From the IMG/VR virus record IMGVR_UViG_3300008470_000345, positions 1 through 25,867 of that record: a stretch of DNA of 25,867 nt; one strand, 5' to 3'. Within the stretch, counting starts at the first letter, position 1, and each line of letters begins with the position of its first letter. This document shows positions 1 through 18,359 of this stretch, in pieces. The DNA comes from a virus. The notes beneath the pieces were generated by a model, which worked only from the letters and a program-made list of their open reading frames with translations, searched no databases and had not been told where the DNA came from. Both the position numbers and the translations under genes were made by a program.

Positions 1-296
1 CAATGAGTTCTCAAGCCAACTGTGCGGACTGTAAAAACCTTGTATTTATTGTGGTTAATTGCTCTGTGTACCTGATAGCCCCTGTTGCCGAAAATACAGC
101 CGGCTGGTCTCGCCAGAATAGTATTTTTGTCAACGATGCGAGCAATCGGGGTTCTGTGCCAAGAGGAGATAGTTTTTTTATAAAAGTAAATGCCGCTTGC
201 GCCTGCCTCGCCCCGTTCCTGACTTTGACTCATCCACACATGACAGACCTCTTGGTGCGTGCGGAAAGTAGTTCTCGGTTTTTTGGGTTTGTCCAT
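1..296 (-). CDS. Small phage protein, DUF8033-like, partial
   Basis: This reading frame opens with ATG at 294-296 on the minus strand and stays open to the left edge, giving 98 codons with the C-terminus missing. An AAGGA ribosome site lies about six bases before the start. The N-terminal half (residues 18-40, with VCHVWMSQSQ and then IYFYKKTISSW) and the following TPIARIV resemble a family of small phage and archaeal proteins that I recall as DUF8033, which share an HxWxxQSQ motif and an FxxxxIYSYG-like strand. That comparison is from memory. The function of the family is unknown to me. It is the last visible gene of the leftward operon and is preceded by a structured intergenic RNA at 337-399. 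The overlapping plus-strand frame looks like a shadow. Confidence 0.6.
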   Translation of the reverse strand, partial: MDKPKKPRTTFRTHQEVCHVWMSQSQERGEAGASGIYFYKKTISSWHRTPIARIVDKNTILARPAGCIFGNRGYQVHRAINHNKYKVFTVRTVGLRTH

Positions 297-336
297 CGTT
301 CTTCCTTTCTGGCCGAATAACGGCCCCTGTTAAAAT

Positions 337-399
337 AGGCAAGTAAAAAAGGCTGTCGAGGATTGACGCTACTGCGAAGTCTCGGCCTTGCCTGTACTT
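337..399 (-). terminator. Structured intergenic hairpin, terminator-like, with alternative pairing
   Basis: Read on the minus strand, AAGGC plus CGAG (389-381) pair with CTCG-aca-GCCTT (360-349), and six T follow directly (350-345). This is the form of an intrinsic terminator. AAGTA (399-395) can pair with TACTT (345-341) outside it. A competing stem, AGGCAAG (393-387) with CTTGCCT (343-337), shares bases with the terminator stem, so the two folds exclude each other. The element lies between the 80-residue gene and the partial gene at the left edge. It could attenuate or regulate the latter. Pairings were read by eye. Confidence 0.5.
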
Positions 400-408
400 A
401 CGTTGCCA

Positions 409-651
409 CTAATTTGCTGAGTTGAGTACTTCCTCAATCTCTGCGTCGATGGTGTCCCAAGTGATGCCAAGAGTACAGTCCTGCTTGCGGTCGATAAGAG
501 CCAAGACCTGCGCGGCCTGCTGTTCAGTGATGGTTGTGTCCGTGTCTGCTGCCCTCATCATCACATCCATAACAGTCCACAACGCATAGGCAATGACATC
601 GCCTGGTTTGTAGGTTTCGCTCAAATGTTTTATCAAATCTCTCACTAACAT
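409..651 (-). CDS. Small conserved phage-type protein, unknown function
   Basis: An 80-residue acidic protein. The N-terminal part (RDLIKHLSETYKPGDVIAYA) and the C-terminal part (IDRKQDCTLGITWDTIDAEI) resemble small hypothetical proteins that often occur in phage early operons, with a helical start, a DVIAYALW-like core and a QDCxLGITWDTI motif. I know no function for it. AAAGG lies upstream with normal spacing. It is the sixth gene read from the left-operon promoter and follows the 23-codon membrane peptide by 16 bases, so the two are probably co-translated. No signal peptide or membrane segment is seen. Confidence 0.65.
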   Translation of the reverse strand: MLVRDLIKHLSETYKPGDVIAYALWTVMDVMMRAADTDTTITEQQAAQVLALIDRKQDCTLGITWDTIDAEIEEVLNSAN

Positions 652-667
652 AGTCCAGCCCTTTCAA

Positions 668-739
668 TTAAGTCCATCGTTTACATAAAGCCGTAATAAC
701 GGCTATTGCCAGCCCTACAAATAGGATCCGTTCCAGCAT
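668..739 (-). CDS. 23-residue putative membrane peptide
   Basis: A 24-codon frame reading MLERILFVGLAIAVITALCK and ending RWT. It has a strong AAAGGAG ribosome site about seven bases before the ATG, better than that of many neighbours. Residues 4-19 form one hydrophobic helix flanked by charged ends, so a single-pass inner-membrane peptide is likely. It sits 13 bases after the stop of the 83-residue gene and 16 before the start of the 80-residue gene, in the same direction, which supports real translation within the operon. Membrane peptides of this size in phages can act in lysis, superinfection exclusion or modulation of host proteins. Nothing here says which. Confidence 0.5.
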   Translation of the reverse strand: MLERILFVGLAIAVITALCKRWT

Positions 740-752
740 AGTTCAGCTCCTT

Positions 753-1004
753 TCAGTCGGTGTACAGTGCGCCGGTATTCATAGCATGAATAACGATACT
801 GTTACCCGACGAGATTTCAGCATCAGTCAATGTCACTTCGCTGTCGTCGATTAAGTTGTGAATATGAAATAGTTCCAGAGCCTCATCGTAGATTACATGC
901 TTGCTACTTCTGAGGTTGCCGTTCAGCATGACAACAAAGTCCTGACCGCGCACGGCCAGCTCTTTCAATCGCTTCATCGTTTTAACTTGTTCGCCTTTTG
1001 CCAT
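753..1004 (-). CDS. Small phage protein, unknown function
   Basis: An 83-residue protein with a basic start (MAKGEQVKTMKRLKELAVRG) and an acidic C-terminal half. The central strand FVVMLNGNLRSSKHVIYD, followed by IDDSEVTLTDAEI, resembles short hypothetical proteins of phage early regions whose common feature is an LNGxLRSSKxI strand. The function is unknown. A clear AAAGGGG ribosome site precedes the ATG. The upstream junction holds copy 1 of the covarying RNA element (1032-1086), which ends about 28 bases before this start codon, so translation of this gene could be influenced by that structure. Confidence 0.65.
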   Translation of the reverse strand: MAKGEQVKTMKRLKELAVRGQDFVVMLNGNLRSSKHVIYDEALELFHIHNLIDDSEVTLTDAEISSGNSIVIHAMNTGALYTD

Positions 1005-1031
1005 AATTCAAGCCCCTTTCGATATAAGTTT

Positions 1032-1086
1032 CAGTTAAACCGCCAATTATGTTTGACATACGGCCATAATCCGCTGTTGGCGGTGA
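1032..1086 (-). ncRNA. Structured RNA element, copy 1
   Basis: A 55-base intergenic element repeated at 1595-1649. The outer arms CCGCCAA (1040-1046) and TTGGCGG (1077-1083) are perfect inverted repeats. An inner hairpin has a five-pair stem TATGT/ACATA (1048-1052, 1056-1060) and a three-base loop. In copy 2 two of these five pairs change while remaining complementary, which is direct evidence for a conserved fold. On the transcribed minus strand the element starts about six bases after the stop of the 78-residue gene and ends about 28 bases before the next start. A competing local hairpin, CCGC-CAACA-GCGG, is also possible. Confidence 0.65.
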
Positions 1087-1091
1087 GGGTG

Positions 1092-1328
1092 CTAAAGTGG
1101 TTTACCTGCCATTTTAACGGCTCTGTCGTAAAACTCTTGAGCCTGTTTCTTTGTTCGATGCGTACCCGATGCGTGTCTTCCGTCCTCGTAGCCGATGTCG
1201 AGGTGATATTTATAGGAGGGCATATATTTACTGGTTAGTGGGTCGTCATTTTTTGAGGGGTTATTTTTGCCCTCAAATGTTCGCTGTTTAATGGTACAGC
1301 TTATGGGTATTCCATAATACAGTTTCAT
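1092..1328 (-). CDS. Small basic protein, unknown function
   Basis: A 78-residue basic protein (MKLYYGIPISCTIKQRTFEG to AVKMAGKPL). It starts with a short beta-like stretch and ends in a Lys/Arg-rich helix (THRTKKQAQEFYDRAVK). Its charge would suit nucleic-acid binding, but no named domain is recognised, so that is only inference. The start is supported by AGGAG seven bases upstream. It lies in the leftward operon between a long hairpin (1369-1400) and copy 1 of the repeated RNA element. Confidence 0.6.
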   Translation of the reverse strand: MKLYYGIPISCTIKQRTFEGKNNPSKNDDPLTSKYMPSYKYHLDIGYEDGRHASGTHRTKKQAQEFYDRAVKMAGKPL

Positions 1329-1368
1329 AATTCATTCTCCTATATTAAAGTAATGGTTAAGTAAATTT

Positions 1369-1400
1369 ACCGGAAAGCTGATAATTAACAGCCTTCCAGT
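1369..1400 (-). repeat. Long intergenic hairpin
   Basis: A 12-base-pair stem (1389-1400 with 1369-1380, allowing two G-T pairs) and an AT-rich eight-base loop. It begins nine bases after the stop of the 51-residue gene and lies 40 bases before the next ATG. No T-run follows on either strand, so a classic intrinsic terminator is unlikely. An mRNA processing or stabilising hairpin fits better. Confidence 0.5.
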
Positions 1401-1408
1401 AAACATGC

Positions 1409-1564
1409 TTATATGGCCGTAATGGTATCGAATAAATCCCATAAATCATGCTTGAACCAGAATTCAGCGTCTTTATTGTACTCTGTAATCATAAGACTGG
1501 CCGTTTGAGGGTCTTTATTTTCTCTAATACACCAGCCGATGATAGTATCAATTATTGTTTCCAT
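1409..1564 (-). CDS. 51-residue acidic protein, unknown function
   Basis: A short gene starting METIIDTIIGWCIRENKDPQ and ending DLFDTITAI. It is preceded by AAGGGAG about six bases before the ATG. The protein is acidic and Trp/Phe-rich in its second half (EFWFKHDLWDLFD), with no signal peptide, metal motif or recognised domain. It lies in the leftward operon between copy 2 of the RNA element (ending about 30 bases upstream) and the long hairpin at 1369-1400. The ribosome site and the consistent operon position support it as real. Its role is unknown. Confidence 0.55.
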   Translation of the reverse strand: METIIDTIIGWCIRENKDPQTASLMITEYNKDAEFWFKHDLWDLFDTITAI

Positions 1565-1594
1565 AATAAACTCCCTTGTATTAAACTCGATTAG

Positions 1595-1649
1595 CAGTTA
1601 AACCGCCAATTACTTTTGAAGTACAGCCTTGCTCCGCTGTTGGCGGGGA
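1595..1649 (-). ncRNA. Structured RNA element, copy 2
   Basis: Second copy of the element at 1032-1086. Outer arms CCGCCAA (1603-1609) and TTGGCGG (1640-1646) are identical to copy 1. The inner hairpin is TACTT/AAGTA (1611-1615, 1619-1623) with the same TTG loop. Relative to copy 1 the third pair is T-A to C-G and the fourth is G-C to T-A, both compensatory. It starts about three bases after the stop of the 88-residue gene and ends 30 bases before the start of the 51-residue gene, the same position in the junction as copy 1. Confidence 0.65.
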
Positions 1650-1652
1650 TGA

Positions 1653-1919
1653 TTATTCTGTATTGGTTGCATATTCTTTTGCCAGTGCTTCAGTTGCAAA
1701 CTCTTCAACCCAACAGTGATGATTTGTGTTGTCAAAAGCAACCCACGCACCATTTTCTTGATAATAGCCGGATACATAGGGTGCAGGGTATTCGCCCGAT
1801 TGATAACTATCCTCGCCGCTAACCACTGCTTCGTCTTTGTCAGCCAGTATTTCGCCCAATATCCTCTCTGCCTTTTCGCCTTGCAATACCATCGCTCTAA
1901 TCTCTTCTGTTATATTCAT
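1653..1919 (-). CDS. Small acidic protein, unknown function
   Basis: An 88-residue acidic protein with a helical N-terminus (MNITEEIRAMVLQGEKAERI), a Tyr/Ser-rich middle (residues 38-56) and a C-terminal part, WVAFDNTNHHCWVEEFATEA, that looks like a compact alpha/beta fold. No family is recognised. GAAAGG lies about seven bases before the ATG. It is the second gene of the leftward operon. A nine-pair hairpin separates it from the first gene and copy 2 of the structured RNA element follows its stop. Confidence 0.65.
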   Translation of the reverse strand: MNITEEIRAMVLQGEKAERILGEILADKDEAVVSGEDSYQSGEYPAPYVSGYYQENGAWVAFDNTNHHCWVEEFATEALAKEYATNTE

Positions 1920-1978
1920 TGTTCAACCTTTCAATTATAGCCTACCTCATCAGTGTCCAGCCAGCGACCGCCAGACAG

Positions 1979-2000
1979 ACGCGCCGAACAGTCGGCGCGT
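1979..2000 (-). terminator. GC-rich intergenic hairpin
   Basis: A perfect nine-base-pair stem, ACGCGCCGA (1979-1987) with TCGGCGCGT (1992-2000), and a four-base loop. It lies 18 bases after the stop of the first operon gene and 60 bases before the next start. On the minus strand no T-run follows, so it may attenuate or protect the transcript rather than end it. Confidence 0.5.
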
Positions 2001-2017
2001 TTCGGTTGGTTCTCCTT

Positions 2018-2416
2018 TCATTCTGAACTAATTAGCTCCAGTGCATCCCTGACCATACTCTCCAAACTGGTATTAACATTTTGTCCACCAGTGTAGTCTC
2101 GATCACTCTTAGCAGTCCTGACATATATAGAGTTGTGCCAGTTGCGGTTGAATCGGACATCCCCAACATTGAAATACACATGCCGTCCAGTCTTATTGGT
2201 GATGAAGCCAGACAGGTAATAATGCCCCTTATTGAAATTGACAAGCTGAGCCGTTGCGGGTAATTGTTTCTTCAGCCAAATCTTAAACAGCCGAGCAAAC
2301 TCATTGAAGTCCGGCCCTGTTGTACCGCCAGAAGTAAACCGCCAGTCCATGAAGCCCTCGACATCCTTTGGAACTTCCTCTTGATATTGTGTTACTGACT
2401 CTCTTGTGATTTCCAT
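2018..2416 (-). CDS. First gene of the leftward operon, unknown function
   Basis: A 132-residue protein starting MEITRESVTQYQEEVPKDVE. The ATG at 2416 is chosen over an upstream in-frame ATG (2470) because AGGGAG lies seven bases before it and the longer frame would run through the operator-like inverted repeat. Visible features are WRFTSGGTTGPDFNEFARLF, a basic helix (KIWLKKQLP), GHYYLSGFI, and YFNVGDVRFNRNWHNSIYVR with an RDYTGG turn. Similar proteins of unknown function occur, in my memory, in phage early regions. As the promoter-proximal gene it may be made early and in quantity, which is an inference from position only. Confidence 0.65.
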   Translation of the reverse strand: MEITRESVTQYQEEVPKDVEGFMDWRFTSGGTTGPDFNEFARLFKIWLKKQLPATAQLVNFNKGHYYLSGFITNKTGRHVYFNVGDVRFNRNWHNSIYVRTAKSDRDYTGGQNVNTSLESMVRDALELISSE

Positions 2417-2447
2417 TGTGTTACTCCCTAATAAGTGTTCGATTATC

Positions 2448-2477
2448 TGGCACAAGAACGCAACGCCCATTGTGCCA
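2448..2477. promoter_or_regulatory. Inverted repeat at the leftward start site (operator or 5' hairpin)
   Basis: Arms TGGCACAA (2448-2455) and TTGTGCCA (2470-2477) are perfect inverted repeats with a 14-base spacer, so their centres lie 22 bases apart, about two helical turns. The right arm begins about where transcription from the 2485-2513 promoter should start. It may be a repressor operator, or a stem-loop at the 5' end of the mRNA. Confidence 0.5.
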
Positions 2478-2484
2478 CTACTAT

Positions 2485-2513
2485 ACTATACACCGAAAAC
2501 AGCCAACTGCCAA
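2485..2513 (-). promoter_or_regulatory. Leftward sigma70-like promoter
   Basis: On the minus strand TTGGCA (2513-2508) and TATAGT (2490-2485) are separated by exactly 17 bases. Each box matches the consensus at five of six positions. It lies about 70 bases upstream of the first gene of the leftward operon, so it is the natural driver of all the minus-strand genes. Confidence 0.65.
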
Positions 2514-2850
2514 CCTTTTTATTGAGAAAGGACGAAAAAACTTTGGAATAAGCCCGTAACAGCCTGAAAACAGCGATACAAGGCCAAGATTTCCGGCCAA
2601 GCACAGCCATCCTGCCATAAAGCAGAGTAACCTTGCAACCCGAGCCGGTGTTTCGTGTGGATGGAGCGTACAACCAGCTGGAGTGAAAAGACCGTACAGA
2701 ATAAGAAAAGCGAGATTTCCCGACAAAGGACAGCCAACCTGCCATCCTACAAAGAAGAAAACCCTCAGCGTCCCGAACTGGCGTTGCGTGTGGATGGAAT
2801 GTCCAACCCGCTGGAGGCAAAGGCGAGAACTGTTGGCGATAGCCCATATC
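2499..2850. repeat. Diverged tandem repeat in the non-coding region
   Basis: Two imperfect units about 125-130 bases long, roughly 2572-2695 and 2699-2825, align over most of their length. The clearest match is the stretch starting CGTGTGGATGGA at about 2655 and 2786. A shorter motif, ACAGCCA followed by CTGCCA or CCTGCCA, occurs three times, at about 2499, 2603 and 2730. Long minus-strand frames over this stretch have low-complexity, unphage-like composition and overlap one another, so I do not call them genes. Possible roles are an origin, a packaging recognition region, or decayed duplicated coding DNA. Confidence 0.5.
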
Positions 2851-3190
2851 CACAAATAAAGGGGAAAGAAAAGAAAAAGGGAGAGCGGTAGCTCGACAGG
2901 GCGACGCTGGCCAAGAGCCAAACTCTTGTATCGTTCCAATAATTGGGCATTGCCCCCGCTATTCCAAGCCTATTCCCCGCCCAACACAGGCCATTGGCAC
3001 AGTGCGAGCGGTATGTGCCACCCAAGAACAGGCCTCACAGGCAGGAAACGCACTCAAAAGAAAGCGGGGGGGCCCCTGGCGTTCCCAGATCGAACCACGC
3101 CCCCCCGCCGCTCTGCGGCGACTCCCTACCTACCTCGCCCGGAAAAAAACTTAATATATTTATAAATAGACCTTTCTTGTCTCAAAAGTC
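2514..3190. other. Long intergenic region between divergent operons
   Basis: No convincing gene is seen here on either strand. It contains most of the tandem repeat (to about 2850), an A/G-rich stretch (about 2860-2890), a segment with several short G- or C-rich words (2940-3060), and the strong GC hairpins at 3064-3120. Its position between the leftward early-type operon and the terminase genes is where origins or packaging sites are often found in phages. Confidence 0.45.
3064..3120. repeat. G7/C7 hairpin plus adjacent GC hairpin upstream of the terminase genes
   Basis: GCGGGGGGG (3064-3072) pairs perfectly with CCCCCCCGC (3100-3108). An inner GTTC/GAAC pairing (3081-3084 with 3092-3095) can also form inside the loop. 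It is followed by CGCCGC-TCT-GCGGCG (3106-3120). The second hairpin shares bases 3106-3108 with the first stem, so the two compete at the edge. No T-run follows. It is a candidate cos/pac or replication site, or a barrier between divergent operons. Confidence 0.5.
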
Positions 3191-3197
3191 AATAGGG

Positions 3198-3226
3198 TTG
3201 ACTTTAAAGAGGATCTTATCCACAAT
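3198..3226 (+). promoter_or_regulatory. Candidate rightward promoter
   Basis: TTGACT (3198-3203) and CACAAT (3221-3226) are 17 bases apart, matching the sigma70 consensus at five and four of six positions. It lies upstream of the small membrane ORF and the terminase genes and would drive the rightward late genes. Confidence 0.4.
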
Positions 3227-3292
3227 GCAATTAAACCACTGCCTTGCATTGAGTTATGAATTCCTCTTAACATTTACAATCCGCATACCTAA

Positions 3293-3406
3293 ATGGAAAA
3301 AAAATTTCTTTTCGTTGTTTTGGGAATAGTATTTGCATTTTTGGCTTTGTGGTGTATATTTTATTTATGGACGATGCTGAACGGATTCTGGCGGATCAGA
3401 TTTTGA
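3293..3406 (+). CDS. 37-residue putative membrane peptide
   Basis: ATG at 3293 opens a 38-codon frame, MEKKFLFVVLGIVFAFLALW continuing through CIFYLWTMLN to RIRF. Residues 5-29 are almost entirely hydrophobic with basic residues at both ends, the form of a single-pass membrane peptide. It overlaps the start of the putative small terminase gene by 40 bases in another frame. No good ribosome site is seen, so this is less certain than the peptide at 668-739. Coupling of its translation with the terminase start is possible. Confidence 0.3.
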   Translation: MEKKFLFVVLGIVFAFLALWCIFYLWTMLNGFWRIRF

Positions 3407-4077
3407 CCGATAATGGTATTGGGAAATACTGCGGTACTCGGACCGGGGCGTGGGATAAGAAAAAGAAATTCTACCAGAAAGAGTCCGTTTGGGAGCTATT
3501 TTCGGGGAAACGCGGGCTTTACCGTGACACCTTTACCGACCATACCGGGTATATCAATCACGAAATGGCGAATAGGGTGGCTCAGGCTGAGATCGATAAG
3601 ATATTGTTCAATCGAGCCAGAGGTGGGGATAAGATTGCTGCGGCAGAAGCCGCGGACACTTCCGACGAGTTCTTTGTGGACGCTTCGCAATTCAAGCAGA
3701 CCGATGGTCCGCTGGATAACTTGGGGGTTATTGATTGGGTATTCAACCATATCAAGATTAAAGATGTTGACCCTGCGACAGCTCCATGCCCGGGTGCATA
3801 TTTCCTTTTACAGCGATTACAGTCGGACAATGATGCTTTGGACGATTTTTACAAGACGGTCTGGCCGAAGACAATCCCCAGCCGATCAGTGATTGAGGAC
3901 GCGAGACGAAAAAATGATGACGGTCGATCGAATACTGACCTACTTAACAGCCTTGAAGCCGAGATGGAAGACGATGTTACAAGTGAGATACCCCTATTAT
4001 GCCTCGATCTTGAAGAAACACCCAGAGATCAAGACGCGGGCGGGGAACATCGCGTATCGGAAGAAGCTACTGAGTAA
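3367..4077 (+). CDS. Putative terminase small subunit
   Basis: A 236-residue, mostly helical, charged protein directly upstream of the large terminase, where TerS normally lies. TerS recognises phage DNA and starts packaging by loading TerL. No classical helix-turn-helix can be named. The C-terminal third (APCPGAYFLLQRLQS, then FYKTVWPKTIPS and RRKNDDGR) resembles proteins found next to TerL in other phages, from memory. I chose ATG 3367 over the GTG codons at 3349/3352, but neither has a clear ribosome site. The last 30 or so residues, after EAEMEDDV, overlap the TerL frame and look atypical. The assignment rests mainly on position. Confidence 0.45.
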   Translation: MDDAERILADQILTDNGIGKYCGTRTGAWDKKKKFYQKESVWELFSGKRGLYRDTFTDHTGYINHEMANRVAQAEIDKILFNRARGGDKIAAAEAADTSDEFFVDASQFKQTDGPLDNLGVIDWVFNHIKIKDVDPATAPCPGAYFLLQRLQSDNDALDDFYKTVWPKTIPSRSVIEDARRKNDDGRSNTDLLNSLEAEMEDDVTSEIPLLCLDLEETPRDQDAGGEHRVSEEATE

Positions 4078-5824
4078 GGCCGCAGGAAACGAGAAGTTTC
4101 AGCATGAACTCTGGATGATGTGCAAACGAGACATGCTGTTCTGGATTAACTTTTTCGTCCACACCTACGACCCGCGGCTCATTCCGAAGTCCACAGTGGT
4201 CCCGTTCATCACCTACCTCTTTCAAGATGTCACCATGGACGATATTTGTCAAGCCATCGATAACGGTCAGGATGAGGGTTCCGAAAAGAGCCGTGATATG
4301 GGCGCTTCGTGGATGTACCTGTTGGTTTTCCTGCATCGATGGCACTTCCGCGATTACCAGTCTTTCCGGCTTTTGAGCGAGACAGCCGACAAAGTGGACA
4401 AGTCGGACGATCCGGACAGCCTGTTCTGGAAGTTGGATTTCGTACTGAAACATGAGCCGAAGTGGATGAAACCAAAATTCAAGCGTAACTTCCTTTTGCT
4501 CAAAAACGAACACAACGAATCGACTATCACCGGTTGTACGACGACCGGCGATGCCGCCCGTGGTGGCCGCTGTACAGCTATGCTCATCGATGAAATGGCG
4601 GCAATTCGCGATGCGAACGCCTTAATGTCCTCAACTCAGCATGTAACCAGGTGCCGGCTGTTCAATTCGACCCACCAAGGCAGTGCTGGAGCCTTTTATC
4701 GCATTATGAATGATGGCCGAACTCCTAAGATGATACTGCACTGGTCGCTTCACCCGGTCAAACAGAGAGGCCTCTACTGCTTTATCGGCGGCAAGCTGAT
4801 ACAGTACGACCCGACCTACGAGGCCAAGGTGCGCCTATACGGTACCAACGAAGTAGTCGATTTCCCAAAGGAATACCCGTTCCGTGACGATGGCAAGCTC
4901 AGATCGCCGTGGTACGATTACGAATGCGACCGGGCTTCGCACCCGATGGAGATCGCTCAAGAGCTGGACATGGATCCGTTCGCTTCCGACGCGATGTTCT
5001 TCGATGGGATTCAGGTCGATTATATCAAACGAACTCATTGTCGGACCCCAAACCTTGTCGGGTATCTGGAATACGATGAAGACACGCTGGAGCCGACAGA
5101 GTTCATTGAGCAGGAGGGTGGACCGCTTCAACTGTGGATTCCGCTTGGCGCCGATGGTCGCCCAGCCAAGTCACTGTTCTGCGGTATCGGGATAGATGTA
5201 TCAGCCGGTACCGGCGCCAGTAATTCGACCGCTTCTGTCGGCGATATGTACACCCACGAAAAAATAGCCGAGTTCGTTGACCCGTGGATAAAGCCAGAAG
5301 CCTACGCCCGTTTTGTGCACGCTCTGGCTAAGTTTTTCAATAACGCATACCTTGTGTGGGATGGTGGTGGAGCTGGCGGTACCTTTGGCGATGAGCTTGT
5401 CGAAAAGGGGTACCGCAATTTTTATTATCAGCGGATGGAAGACCGTATGTTCAAGCGTGGCACCGACAAGCCAGGCTTCTTCCTGAATCCGAATCCGAAA
5501 CGCCGTCTTCTCGGCGCGTATCGCAAAGCCCTGAAAGATGAGAACTTCATCCAGCGGTCTGAGGAAGCCAATCAGGAGTGCATGAGCTATATCTTCACGA
5601 CCCGCAACACAGTCGAACATTCATCTGAGTACAATAACATCGACCCGTCTGGTGCCAAGGCTTCGCACGGCGACCGTGTGATCGCTGACGCTCTGCTGAA
5701 CCACGCTTTTGGTATGTCGAAAGGTCAGCCCATAAGCGAAAATAAAAACATAACCAACTGTTTCGCAGCGAGATCAGCCAAGCGGCATAAAAAATTAAGA
5801 ATCGGCGAACAGAATTTTTGGTAA
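3914..5824 (+). CDS. terL: Terminase large subunit (packaging ATPase and nuclease)
   Basis: About 636 residues, a normal length for TerL, the motor that pumps DNA through the portal and cuts the concatemer. The ATPase half has a Walker A-like EKSRDMGASW (4283-4312), Walker B MLIDE (4580-4594, with Asp at 4589) and a coupling motif FNSTHQG. The RNase H-like nuclease half has GIGIDVSAG (Asp at 5195), VWDGGGAGG and SHGDRVIADAL (Asp codons at 5672 and 5687), giving the expected acidic cluster. The start is uncertain. TTG 3893, ATG 3914 or 3917, and ATG 3974 are all in frame without a strong ribosome site, and all overlap the preceding ORF. Conserved-looking sequence begins about residue 20. The downstream gene follows after 28 bases. 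Confidence 0.9.
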   Translation: MMTVDRILTYLTALKPRWKTMLQVRYPYYASILKKHPEIKTRAGNIAYRKKLLSKAAGNEKFQHELWMMCKRDMLFWINFFVHTYDPRLIPKSTVVPFITYLFQDVTMDDICQAIDNGQDEGSEKSRDMGASWMYLLVFLHRWHFRDYQSFRLLSETADKVDKSDDPDSLFWKLDFVLKHEPKWMKPKFKRNFLLLKNEHNESTITGCTTTGDAARGGRCTAMLIDEMAAIRDANALMSSTQHVTRCRLFNSTHQGSAGAFYRIMNDGRTPKMILHWSLHPVKQRGLYCFIGGKLIQYDPTYEAKVRLYGTNEVVDFPKEYPFRDDGKLRSPWYDYECDRASHPMEIAQELDMDPFASDAMFFDGIQVDYIKRTHCRTPNLVGYLEYDEDTLEPTEFIEQEGGPLQLWIPLGADGRPAKSLFCGIGIDVSAGTGASNSTASVGDMYTHEKIAEFVDPWIKPEAYARFVHALAKFFNNAYLVWDGGGAGGTFGDELVEKGYRNFYYQRMEDRMFKRGTDKPGFFLNPNPKRRLLGAYRKALKDENFIQRSEEANQECMSYIFTTRNTVEHSSEYNNIDPSGAKASHGDRVIADALLNHAFGMSKGQPISENKNITNCFAARSAKRHKKLRIGEQNFW

Positions 5825-5852
5825 TATCAGCTTTTCAGTGAAAGGGTGCAAA

Positions 5853-6059
5853 ATGGACTTCGCGGAAGCGTTAAAAATGGCTAAGATGGGTAGCGAGATT
5901 GCCCGGTATAGCTGGAAGTCGAAGTTTTACCTTACTGCGGAGTATGCCAAGCATTACCCGCCATCTATTGTCGCTGTGGACGCGGTTTCGAGGAAAAGAA
6001 CCCCTTGGCAACCGACCACTGAGGACTTATTTGCAGAAGACTGGTGGATAATTCCGTAA
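5853..6059 (+). CDS. DUF2829 / Tad2-like small protein
   Basis: A 68-residue protein with the hallmarks of DUF2829: the start MDFAEALKMAKMGSEIARYS followed by W, a central strand, and the C-terminal PWQPTTEDLFAEDWWI, which matches the family pattern of PWxPSxxDLLAxDW. Some DUF2829 members are Tad2, phage proteins that bind the cyclic ADP-ribose-type signal of the Thoeris defence system and so protect the phage. Other members are uncharacterised, so anti-defence activity here is inference. AAAGGG lies about six bases before ATG 5853. An in-frame GTG at 5838 would include the ribosome site and is less likely. It lies between terL and the orphan RNA upstream of the portal gene. Confidence 0.7.
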   Translation: MDFAEALKMAKMGSEIARYSWKSKFYLTAEYAKHYPPSIVAVDAVSRKRTPWQPTTEDLFAEDWWIIP

Positions 6060-6249: not shown

Positions 6250-8247
6250 ATGGCCGAGGATAAAAATAAACTGGAGTTTAACATTGACGAACTGTCCGAG
6301 GCGGCTGGTTACAGCTTGAAACAGCTTGAGCCTTTCCGCCGTAATCGCAAGGCTGCGCTCGAGCAATATGTCGGTGCTCACTATTCGGATAACGCCGCCG
6401 CCGATAAGGTTCCAGTCAATCTTCTTGAGTTGGCTGTCAACATCTACTTACAACGCCTTGTAGCCAGTAGCCCCAAGGTTGCAATTAACACACCTATCCC
6501 ACAGCTCCGCGAAATATCGGAGCGTTTCAAACTTGCAATCAATCACCTTATCGAAGATGAAATTGACTTAGAGAAGACTCTCGAACAGGCTGTTACCAGC
6601 GCGATGTTTTCTCAGGGCATTGTCAAGGTGGCGATGAACGAGTCACAGGTTGAGTACCTTGGAGTATTGCACGATTCAGGCCAGCCGTTCGCCAGCTTCG
6701 TGACTCTTGACAACTGGATTCAGGATATGACGGCTGATGATCGTTCGCAAGGCCAGTTCGAGGCCGACCGATATGCTATGACCAAGGCTGATATTCTAAA
6801 GATGTACGAGAATCTTAACCCCGACGAGGTGGACGCAAAGAAAGATCTATTTACCCCTTACGGCAACGAGGCCCATAACCTAACTGACAATAGCGCGTCA
6901 ACTCGCACGGAGTTCGAGGAACGAGTTTCGGTATGGGATGTCTGGCTACCAAAGTACGGTATCGTCGTGACCTGTCTGGACTCAGGCGATCACGGTCAGC
7001 CATTCGGCAAGCCAATCAATATCGCTAAGTGGAATGGTGTCGAGACGGGACCATATCATCTTCTTGGCTTCGCCGATGTAGAGGCTAACACAATGCCGCT
7101 GGCTCCAATCGCTTCCATGATTGATATACATGATTTGGTCAACAGGTTATTCAGAAAGCTCGGACGGCAGGGCGAAAGGCAAAAGACTTTTGCCGCGATA
7201 CCGAGGGGAGCGAGTGCCGACGGCGAGCGTGTTCGCGATGTAAACGATGGCGACGTTCAGGAGTTTGATAGCCCCGACAAAATCCAAGAGATTAGCACGG
7301 GCGGTATCTCAGTCGAGAACCTTGCTTTCCTTTTGCAGTGCAAAGACCTGTATTCGTATCTGGCTGGAAACCTTGACACCATGGGTGGGCTTTCAGCTCA
7401 GGCAGACACCTTGGGTCAAGAAAACCTGTTGTCAGCCGGCGCGTCACAGAGAATAACCCGTATGCAGAAAAAAGTTTATAAGTTCGTCAAAGGCATTTGC
7501 ACGGCTCTTGCTTTCTATATCTGGACGGACCCGCTTATCGACATACCTGTAGTCAAGCGAGTGCCTGGCATGGATGATGTCGCTGTCCGCGATTCTTTCG
7601 GGCCGAATGACGAGCGTAACGAAAACGACTTCTTCGAGTACAATATCAAAATCGAGCCGTACTCGTTACAGCACCAAGGACCAGAACGAAAACTCCAAGC
7701 CCTGCGAACAGTCTTTACCGAAATGCTGATGCCTCTGATGCCGGTAATGGCGCAGAGTGGTATCGGGATAGACTTCGAGTATTTCTTCCGAACGATCAGC
7801 GAGCTGTCGAATGTTCCCGAACTCGACAACATACTTATATATATGGACCCGAAACACCAGCAAGGGATGGTCGGCCAACCGCCGCAAAAGGCGGCGCAAA
7901 CCAAACATACTTCTGTGAGGGTTAACCGTCCAGGTGCAACTGAAAAAGGTAAGAACCAAACACTAATGCACACTTTGCTTGGCAATAAGCAGCAGGCTTC
8001 CGAGGGAGCCGCGGCATTTAGGCCAACAGGAAAAAGGAACTTTACTATGGAAAAATGCGATGAACATTCGGGATGCATGGAAGCAATAGGGAATCTTAAA
8101 GATAGCGACAAGGAACAATGGACAGCGATCAATAAAATCAAAAACCGACCGCCAGTATGGATTACGATAGTATACACAATATCCACGGGTGTATTCACTC
8201 TCGTTATTGGTTTGCTGTTGGGATACTTAAAAGCAAAAGGAGCTTAA
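6250..8247 (+). CDS. Portal protein, fused to a C-terminal holin-like membrane segment
   Basis: A 665-residue frame. Residues 1 to about 599 are portal-like: the ring at the head vertex through which TerL pumps DNA. Support is its place after the terminases, its length, and the segment NRLFRKLGRQGERQKTFAAI, then the region with DLYSYLAGNLDTMGGLS, DTLGQENLL and QRITRMQKKVYKF, typical of a family of phage portal proteins. AAGGGA precedes the ATG. Residues 600-665 differ in type: a short charged helix, KDSDKEQWTAINKIKNRPPV, then one membrane helix and a basic tail, as in XhlA-type holin-associated proteins. An internal ATG with its own ribosome site begins that part. The fused C-terminus is unusual for a portal. 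Confidence 0.8.
   Translation: MAEDKNKLEFNIDELSEAAGYSLKQLEPFRRNRKAALEQYVGAHYSDNAAADKVPVNLLELAVNIYLQRLVASSPKVAINTPIPQLREISERFKLAINHLIEDEIDLEKTLEQAVTSAMFSQGIVKVAMNESQVEYLGVLHDSGQPFASFVTLDNWIQDMTADDRSQGQFEADRYAMTKADILKMYENLNPDEVDAKKDLFTPYGNEAHNLTDNSASTRTEFEERVSVWDVWLPKYGIVVTCLDSGDHGQPFGKPINIAKWNGVETGPYHLLGFADVEANTMPLAPIASMIDIHDLVNRLFRKLGRQGERQKTFAAIPRGASADGERVRDVNDGDVQEFDSPDKIQEISTGGISVENLAFLLQCKDLYSYLAGNLDTMGGLSAQADTLGQENLLSAGASQRITRMQKKVYKFVKGICTALAFYIWTDPLIDIPVVKRVPGMDDVAVRDSFGPNDERNENDFFEYNIKIEPYSLQHQGPERKLQALRTVFTEMLMPLMPVMAQSGIGIDFEYFFRTISELSNVPELDNILIYMDPKHQQGMVGQPPQKAAQTKHTSVRVNRPGATEKGKNQTLMHTLLGNKQQASEGAAAFRPTGKRNFTMEKCDEHSGCMEAIGNLKDSDKEQWTAINKIKNRPPVWITIVYTISTGVFTLVIGLLLGYLKAKGA
8047..8247 (+). 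CDS. In-frame internal ORF, holin/XhlA-like membrane protein
   Basis: Within the portal frame, ATG 8047 is preceded by AAAAGGAA seven bases upstream, a proper ribosome site. From it a 66-residue protein would be made: an N-terminal charged helix with Cys and His (MEKCDEHSGC), then KDSDKEQWTAINKIKNRP, then one membrane helix (about residues 41-62, WITIVYTISTGVFTLVIG...) and a basic tail. This matches the small XhlA/holin-associated proteins of many phages, which help disrupt the inner membrane at lysis. In related layouts I would expect a stop codon before it. Here none is present, so it may be produced both as a fusion tail and alone. Confidence 0.5.
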   Translation: MEKCDEHSGCMEAIGNLKDSDKEQWTAINKIKNRPPVWITIVYTISTGVFTLVIGLLLGYLKAKGA

Positions 8248-13683: not shown

Positions 13684-13770
13684 ATGAACAAAATCAATAC
13701 GTTTAATTACATGGCTGGTGCTGGAGTTTTGCAGGGTACATGGGACGACCCATCGGCTGTCGGTGGAGGC
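13684..13770 (+). repeat. Shared 5' gene segment, copy 1
   Basis: The first 29 codons match those at 18273-18359 at both DNA and protein level. About 36 bases in the centre (encoding AGAGVLQGTWDD) are nearly identical, while the sequences after it are unrelated. This is typical of an N-terminal virion-attachment module exchanged between fibres. Confidence 0.75.
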
Positions 13771-18045: not shown

Positions 18046-18273
18046 ATGGCTAAAATACAATTTCGTTACCCCATGAAAGGGAAGAATACTAACTTTGCCG
18101 CCTCGACCCAGCCGATGTTTAGCAGTCCGCGCATGCTGAATGTCAGGCCGCGTGAAGTGCTGGGGAACCGAGCAAGGGGTGGACAGAGGCCGGGCCAGGC
18201 CAAACAGTATAACGAGGACTTGGGGGGTCCAATTATTTCAATCTGTGAAGTGGTCACGGTCGAGGTTTCGTAA
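18046..18273 (+). CDS. Small virion-associated protein with ARGGQRPGQ motif
   Basis: 75 residues, basic. The centre reads SPRMLNVRPREVLGNRARGG directly followed by QRPGQAKQY. This SPxMxNVRPxxxLxxRARGGQRPG motif I recall as a common N-terminal segment of phage tail-region proteins in related genomes, where it may belong to a longer protein. Here it stands alone. ATG 18046 is two bases after the previous stop, and its own stop overlaps the start of the next fibre gene (TAATG), so translation is probably coupled. Function unknown. Confidence 0.55.
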   Translation: MAKIQFRYPMKGKNTNFAASTQPMFSSPRMLNVRPREVLGNRARGGQRPGQAKQYNEDLGGPIISICEVVTVEVS

Positions 18274-18359
18274 TGAACAAAATCAATATATTCGATTATT
18301 TGGCTGGTGCTGGAGTTTTGCAGGGCACATGGGACGATCCTGAATCCGTGGGCAGCGGT
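18273..18359 (+). repeat. Shared 5' gene segment, copy 2
   Basis: Encodes MNKINIFDYLAGAGVLQGTW and the next residues, matching the start of the beta-helix fibre gene at 13684. The centre is nearly base-for-base identical, while the bodies of the two genes are unrelated. Confidence 0.75.

Follow-up and report, generated by a model that had tools for sequence, protein, structure and literature searches.

The leftward (minus-strand) operon of an IMG/VR viral contig, from an uncultured phage, carries, in two of its gene junctions, a repeated 55-nt element whose predicted fold is kept while its paired bases change. The contig, a 25.9-kb viral fragment of 25,867 bases, is called the window below. 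Copy A was located at 1032-1086 and copy B at 1595-1649 (both minus strand; mRNA sense TCACCGCCAACAGCGGATTATGGCCGTATGTCAAACATAATTGGCGGTTTAACTG and TCCCCGCCAACAGCGGAGCAAGGCTGTACTTCAAAAGTAATTGGCGGTTTAACTG, respectively), exactly where an earlier sequence-only reading had placed them, and these are the only two copies in the contig. The repeated intergenic element is real. The copies agree at 46 of 55 positions without a gap, and the score of this self-repeat was 37 compared with a best score of 18 in 20 shuffles of the window, which is far above the chance expectation. The borders of the homology are sharp, the flanking sequences are unrelated and the element is confined to the junction. Its placement shortly after a stop codon and before the next start had also been noticed correctly, although the spacings had to be amended: copy A begins 5 nt past the TAG (1094-1092) of a 78-aa ORF (1092-1328) and ends 27 nt ahead of the ATG of an 83-aa ORF (753-1004), and copy B begins 3 nt past the TAA (1655-1653) of an 88-aa ORF (1653-1919) and ends 30 nt ahead of the ATG of a 51-aa ORF (1409-1564), all of these ORFs being on the minus strand.

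Both copies are predicted to fold into a three-way junction of 15-16 pairs, which is composed of a 7-pair outer stem, a 4-pair hairpin and a 4-5-pair hairpin with a CAA loop. The arms of the outer stem (P1), CCGCCAA/TTGGCGG, are identical in the two copies, as the sequence-only reading had stated. They lie at 1040-1046 and 1077-1083 in copy A (1040-1083 with the enclosed part, minus strand) and at 1603-1609 and 1640-1646 in copy B (1603-1646, minus strand), and the outer part of the stem showed a pairing probability above 0.97 in each. In mRNA sense, the inner hairpin reads TATGT-CAA-ACATA in copy A (1048-1060, minus strand) and TACTT-CAA-AAGTA in copy B (1611-1623, minus strand); the two compensatory double changes that had been claimed for this stem (TATGT/ACATA versus TACTT/AAGTA) and the constancy of its TTG loop (CAA in the mRNA) were both borne out. 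The 4-pair hairpin had been overlooked, and it is this second hairpin that turns the fold into a three-way junction. An unpaired 3' tail, TTTAACTG (1032-1039 in copy A, minus strand), is the same in both copies.

Next, we compared the two copies column by column. They differ at columns 3, 18, 19, 21, 25, 29, 30, 36 and 37. Four of these nine differences make up the two compensatory double changes, one is a one-sided stem change (G-C/G-U) that still leaves a standard pair, and four lie in loops or in the flank, so that no pair of the consensus fold is broken in either copy. The substitutions are located in both hairpins and in one loop and spare the junction residues, the outer stem and the tail; the ends of the element are conserved and its centre is variable. 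When nine substitutions were placed at random, all pairs stayed intact with at least two double changes in 0.03% of the trials for the plus-strand fold and 0.05% for the mRNA-sense fold, and 3 of 3000 column-shuffled alignments equalled the observed RNAalifold energy; since these estimates take the structure as given and come from two sequences (n=2), they are strong hints, not proof. The 55-nt element shows the covarying base pairs by which a conserved structured RNA is recognized. It could be argued that the element has no RNA function and is a recent accidental duplication, whose differences keep the pairs by luck. Only two copies exist, and the folding of the single sequences has a modest advantage over dinucleotide shuffles (z of -0.9 to -1.9), both of which fit this explanation. 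However, the simulated probability of the observed pattern, with two double changes, one single change and no broken pair, is about 3-5e-4, which supports the earlier claim that the fold is kept while the bases change, and the placement in the two junctions is equal. We therefore consider such an accident very unlikely.

The question of which strand is functional was also considered. On the plus strand, which runs opposite to the genes, the same three-way junction of 16 pairs is the minimum-energy fold of both copies. On the mRNA strand the outer stem is firm, and the minimum-energy folds contain GCGG/CCGT in copy A and CAGC/GCTG in copy B as the second hairpin. The fold is slightly better, or more regular, on the plus strand, so that the RNA sense is a presumption, and two copies alone would not tell the functional strand. 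We took the functional molecule to be the mRNA because the genes run in that direction, and not from the covariation. REP and BIME palindromes are repeated and intergenic, lie just after stop codons and may stabilize the upstream mRNA. REP-type elements are characterized by many dispersed copies and a dedicated transposase; the contig, which covers part of the viral genome, has two copies. The element is also repeated and palindromic and follows directly after stop codons, but it has only two copies, forms a three-way junction and shows no REP foot. A DNA-level or mobile element of this kind, namely a REP- or MITE-like palindrome or a recombination site that was copied after stop codons and folds as single-stranded DNA or as a cruciform, would account for the sharp homology borders, the unrelated flanks, the conserved ends around a variable centre and a fold at least as good on the plus strand. 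However, none was found outside the two positions in 25.9 kb, no target-site duplication is visible, and the REP-type GTAG foot and the attC boxes RYYYAAC/GTTRRRY are absent by inspection. Such an origin seems unlikely.

To characterize the element further, cmscan was run against Rfam, on positions 1-3400 at E-values up to 5 on both strands and on the window at gathering thresholds. No Rfam family matched copy A or copy B on either strand at E up to 5. At the copies, neither hammerhead RF02276 nor any other hammerhead type was detected, the core words CUGANGA/GAAA are absent, and the twister, twister-sister, pistol, hatchet, HDV and hairpin ribozyme models gave nothing at E up to 5. Known ribozyme classes were thus excluded for the copies by Rfam and by inspection of the cores.

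We also looked for the element in other genomes. Exact-pattern scans of IMG/VR and GTDB contigs, with CCGCCAACAGCGG...TTGGCGG, GTTAAACCGCCAA...TTGGCGG and core words with the outer stem left free, yielded no convincing copy. Matches in L001, L002, L006 and L008 were by appearance chance matches in coding sequence, and a match in L007, with 17 nt and TGTTGGCGGT in common around the start codon of an unrelated tail-type gene, is probably due to chance. BLASTN of the copies against phage and plasmid records gave matches with E about 4 or none, and protein searches with three of the operon genes gave no relatives. Alignment of the terminase (TerL) identified 80 relatives, with L015 as the best (70%) and L009-L014 at 51-56%; many TerL relatives are fragments that stop short of the leftward operon. 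A covariance search of related phages, which the sequence-only reading had proposed as a check, recovered no further copy: models of both strands gave nothing below E 1 in 47 TerL relatives, the closest ones among them, and the mRNA-sense model found no copy in 23 whole records. Fold-keeping homologues thus do not seem to occur in the 47 relatives or in the viral and genome contigs covered. Given that no homologue was found outside the contig, the structure rests on two sequences. The element is probably lineage-specific. A literature search, which was not exhaustive, found no account of it.

The dimensions of the fold raise the possibility of a degenerate tRNA or tRNA-like fragment that is processed by host tRNA nucleases. 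The element has a 7-pair acceptor-like stem, a 2-nt linker, a 4-pair D-like hairpin with GG in its loop and a 5-pair hairpin, so that its stem lengths resemble a cloverleaf minus the anticodon arm. In addition, a tRNA-like three-way fold located directly after a stop codon in L010 (8357-8280, minus strand) has a T-arm-like GCCGGUUCAACUCCGGC and a UUAACU tail. However, this site was chosen after the fact and is a weak lead with a score of 7.5 bits with model R1, the element itself has neither a T-loop nor CCA, and ARAGORN and the Rfam tRNA models found nothing in the window. A tRNA origin is thus extremely improbable.

Two ways in which the element might regulate expression had been suggested from the letters alone. 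One is a switch, in which a local CCGC-CAACA-GCGG hairpin competes with the outer stem. The sequence does contain this hairpin, but with a predicted pairing probability of at most 0.025, and the state that includes it reaches about -5.4 kcal/mol as compared with -11.3 to -13.8 kcal/mol for the three-way junction. The three-way junction is thus favoured by 6-8 kcal/mol, and the CCGC/GCGG switch was discarded on energy. The other is translation control of the next gene, which might work if the element masked the Shine-Dalgarno sequence of that gene. This sequence lies outside the element, 10-20 nt beyond it, and its predicted accessibility (0.50 for copy A and 0.42 for copy B) is not below that of shuffled spacers, 71% (A) and 41% (B) of which were at or under the observed value. 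The accessibility calculation argues against Shine-Dalgarno occlusion, and equally against translational coupling through a CCC/GGG outer helix. We also found no match to a promoter or an intrinsic terminator at either copy in the mRNA (leftward) sense. No leftward site at the copies combines a G+C-rich hairpin with a T run, the element ending in the tail TTTAACTG, and the Rfam and terminator searches gave no match at this tail.

These results also bear on the possibility that the copies are bound by an RNA-binding protein, of the phage or of the host, which would repress the downstream message or protect it, in the manner of an operator-like hairpin or of HK022 put-like antitermination. The base-specific conservation of the outer stem, the CAA loop and the tail alongside covarying inner pairs would be consistent with such a site, as would the repetition of the copies inside one operon. 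However, no candidate protein was identified, and the next Shine-Dalgarno sequence, beyond the element, is as accessible as it is with shuffled spacers. We regard a protein-binding site as rather unlikely.

The other junctions of the operon also contain structured sequences, their order being hammerhead, element B, 16-pair hairpin and element A. The first junction, between genes 1 and 2, holds a type-II hammerhead ribozyme at 1936-2007 (minus strand; RF02276, 46.8 bits against a gathering score of 37), which was the only cmscan hammerhead match in the window. The 16-pair hairpin, TTTACTGGAAGGCTG/CAGCTTTCCGGTAAA (1339-1405, minus strand), lies in junction 1408-1329 between the two element-bearing junctions; it is unrelated to the element in sequence and looks like a nuclease-processing or stabilizing hairpin. 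In the T7-type arrangement of RNase III hairpins, one structured site per gene junction leads to separate mRNAs. The 16-pair hairpin would fit this idea better than copies A and B, the helices of which have only 4-7 pairs around a three-way junction, and inner hairpins of 4-5 pairs do not reach the length of ordinary RNase III sites. Other features of this part of the window include a possible gene for a 23-residue membrane peptide (MLERILFVGLAIAVITALCKRWT) at 657-728 (minus strand), which has a good ribosome-binding site, and a region of about 0.9 kb without a convincing gene at 2420-3300, which separates the leftward operon from the packaging genes. This region contains a repeat (2639-2688 and 2772-2821), the copies of which are 80% identical and 133 nt apart.

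We then examined what the relatives carry at their junctions. In L062 (about 1968, minus strand) and L065 (2122-2050, minus strand), hammerhead II matches of 41.8 bits, which exceed the gathering score, lie upstream of the terminase. In L015, a leftward-operon junction contains a hammerhead-II-like sequence with a full core (6717-6649, minus strand) that scored 26.1 bits, under the gathering score, and junction 7465-7371 (minus strand) contains another in which CCGATGA replaces CTGATGA in the core. The hammerheads of the relatives sit in the region that corresponds to the operon of the window. Of the operon genes, the ORF upstream of copy B alone has a relative in L015 (37% over 75 aa), and the junction that follows this relative is a 54-nt spacer without the element. 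In L010, two 96-nt copies (3213-3308 and 3382-3477) are 95% identical, and the second overlaps an Rfam tRNA match.

The leftward operon of L059 contains at least seven intergenic repeats of about 90 nt, each directly upstream of a ribosome-binding site (5097-5185, 5474-5562, 5818-5907, 6337-6426, 6669-6760, 7145-7238 and 7621-7711, minus strand), and two weaker copies (4548-4628 and 2131-2211). These repeats appear to have an HDV-like layout: P1 begins with a G-U pair, a P4-like helix is formed by GGCC/GGCC or GCCC/GGGC, and C-TAAG lies ahead of the 3' strand of P2. The P2 strands show compensation (GACTC/GAGTC, GACCC/GGGTC, GATTC/GAATC, GAACC/GGTTC and GGGTCAG/CTGACCT). Since Rfam, including RF02682, gave no match on the repeats, they may be called HDV-like by architecture only. 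A non-exhaustive literature search turned up no operon that carries an HDV-like repeat at many of its junctions, and these repeats are possibly more striking than the 55-nt element. Given the hammerhead in the window and the hammerheads and HDV-like repeats in its relatives, this phage group tends to place putative cleavage elements of different classes at the junctions of its leftward operon.

Based on this company, we propose, with somewhat less than even confidence, that copies A and B act in cis as structured RNA within the mRNA of the leftward operon and would there mark gene boundaries, as a form of mRNA punctuation by cleavage or end protection. The hammerhead, the 16-pair hairpin, the hammerheads of the relatives and the HDV-like repeats of L059 all point to this role. 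The element would be transcribed together with the genes of the operon, and the predicted three-way junction would fold just after the point where the ribosomes of the upstream gene stop. A host nuclease, or the RNA itself, might then cut at or near the stem, or the fold might protect the 3' end, and the next gene would be translated from the Shine-Dalgarno sequence outside the element. Neighbouring genes could in this way have separate stabilities. The repeated placement, the covariation, the lack of exclusive Shine-Dalgarno occlusion and the lack of a promoter or terminator match speak for punctuation, and the lack of a homologue, the unsettled strand and the orthologous L015 junction without the element speak against it. 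Punctuation of the mRNA seems to be the most economical reading of the two copies.

Earlier new ribozyme classes, such as twister-sister, pistol and hatchet, were sought near known ribozymes. If the cut were made by the RNA itself, then the element would belong to a class of self-cleaving ribozymes not yet described, with the form of a compact three-way junction, and would cleave the mRNA at each copy. This would agree with the hammerhead II in the same operon, with the hammerhead or HDV-like elements at equivalent places in relatives, and with substitutions that avoid the junction residues, outer stem and tail. However, no catalytic core of any known class is present, the conservation of unpaired bases says little when the copies are two and closely similar, and the outer stem is invariant, unlike the stems of most small ribozymes. 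Self-cleavage by the element is thus distinctly unlikely, and there is a slim chance for the broader scenario in which a new small ribozyme class and the hammerhead would together cut the operon mRNA, different lineages filling the same junctions with different ribozyme classes.

Type-II hammerheads, intergenic hammerheads of phages and active tandem hammerheads in polycistronic RNA have been described (PMC3088659). Copies A and B are likewise small folded RNAs between phage genes of one operon, but they lack the CUGANGA/GAAA core and a match to RF02276 or any other Rfam family, and have another junction architecture. HDV-like theta ribozymes, which adjoin tRNAs, have been reported from gut phages (PMC10879173); they are also small phage ribozymes, and the junctions of L059 contain HDV-like repeats, whereas copies A and B do not fold as nested pseudoknots and have no C-UAAG joining segment. 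Structured RNAs between phage genes are known. The 55-nt element, a repeat within a hammerhead-bearing operon that has no RNA family and keeps its fold through compensatory changes, makes a concrete candidate for a new motif, either of RNA processing or of a ribozyme. That some relatives have hammerheads, and another has HDV-like repeats between its genes, would point to cutting at the junctions as a selected trait of this phage group, for which the cutter is exchangeable.

Elsewhere in the window, two structural genes share an 88%-identical 68-nt start (13684-13751 and 18273-18340), the translation of which, MNKIN.F.YLAGAGVLQGTWDDP, is a repeated N-terminal module.
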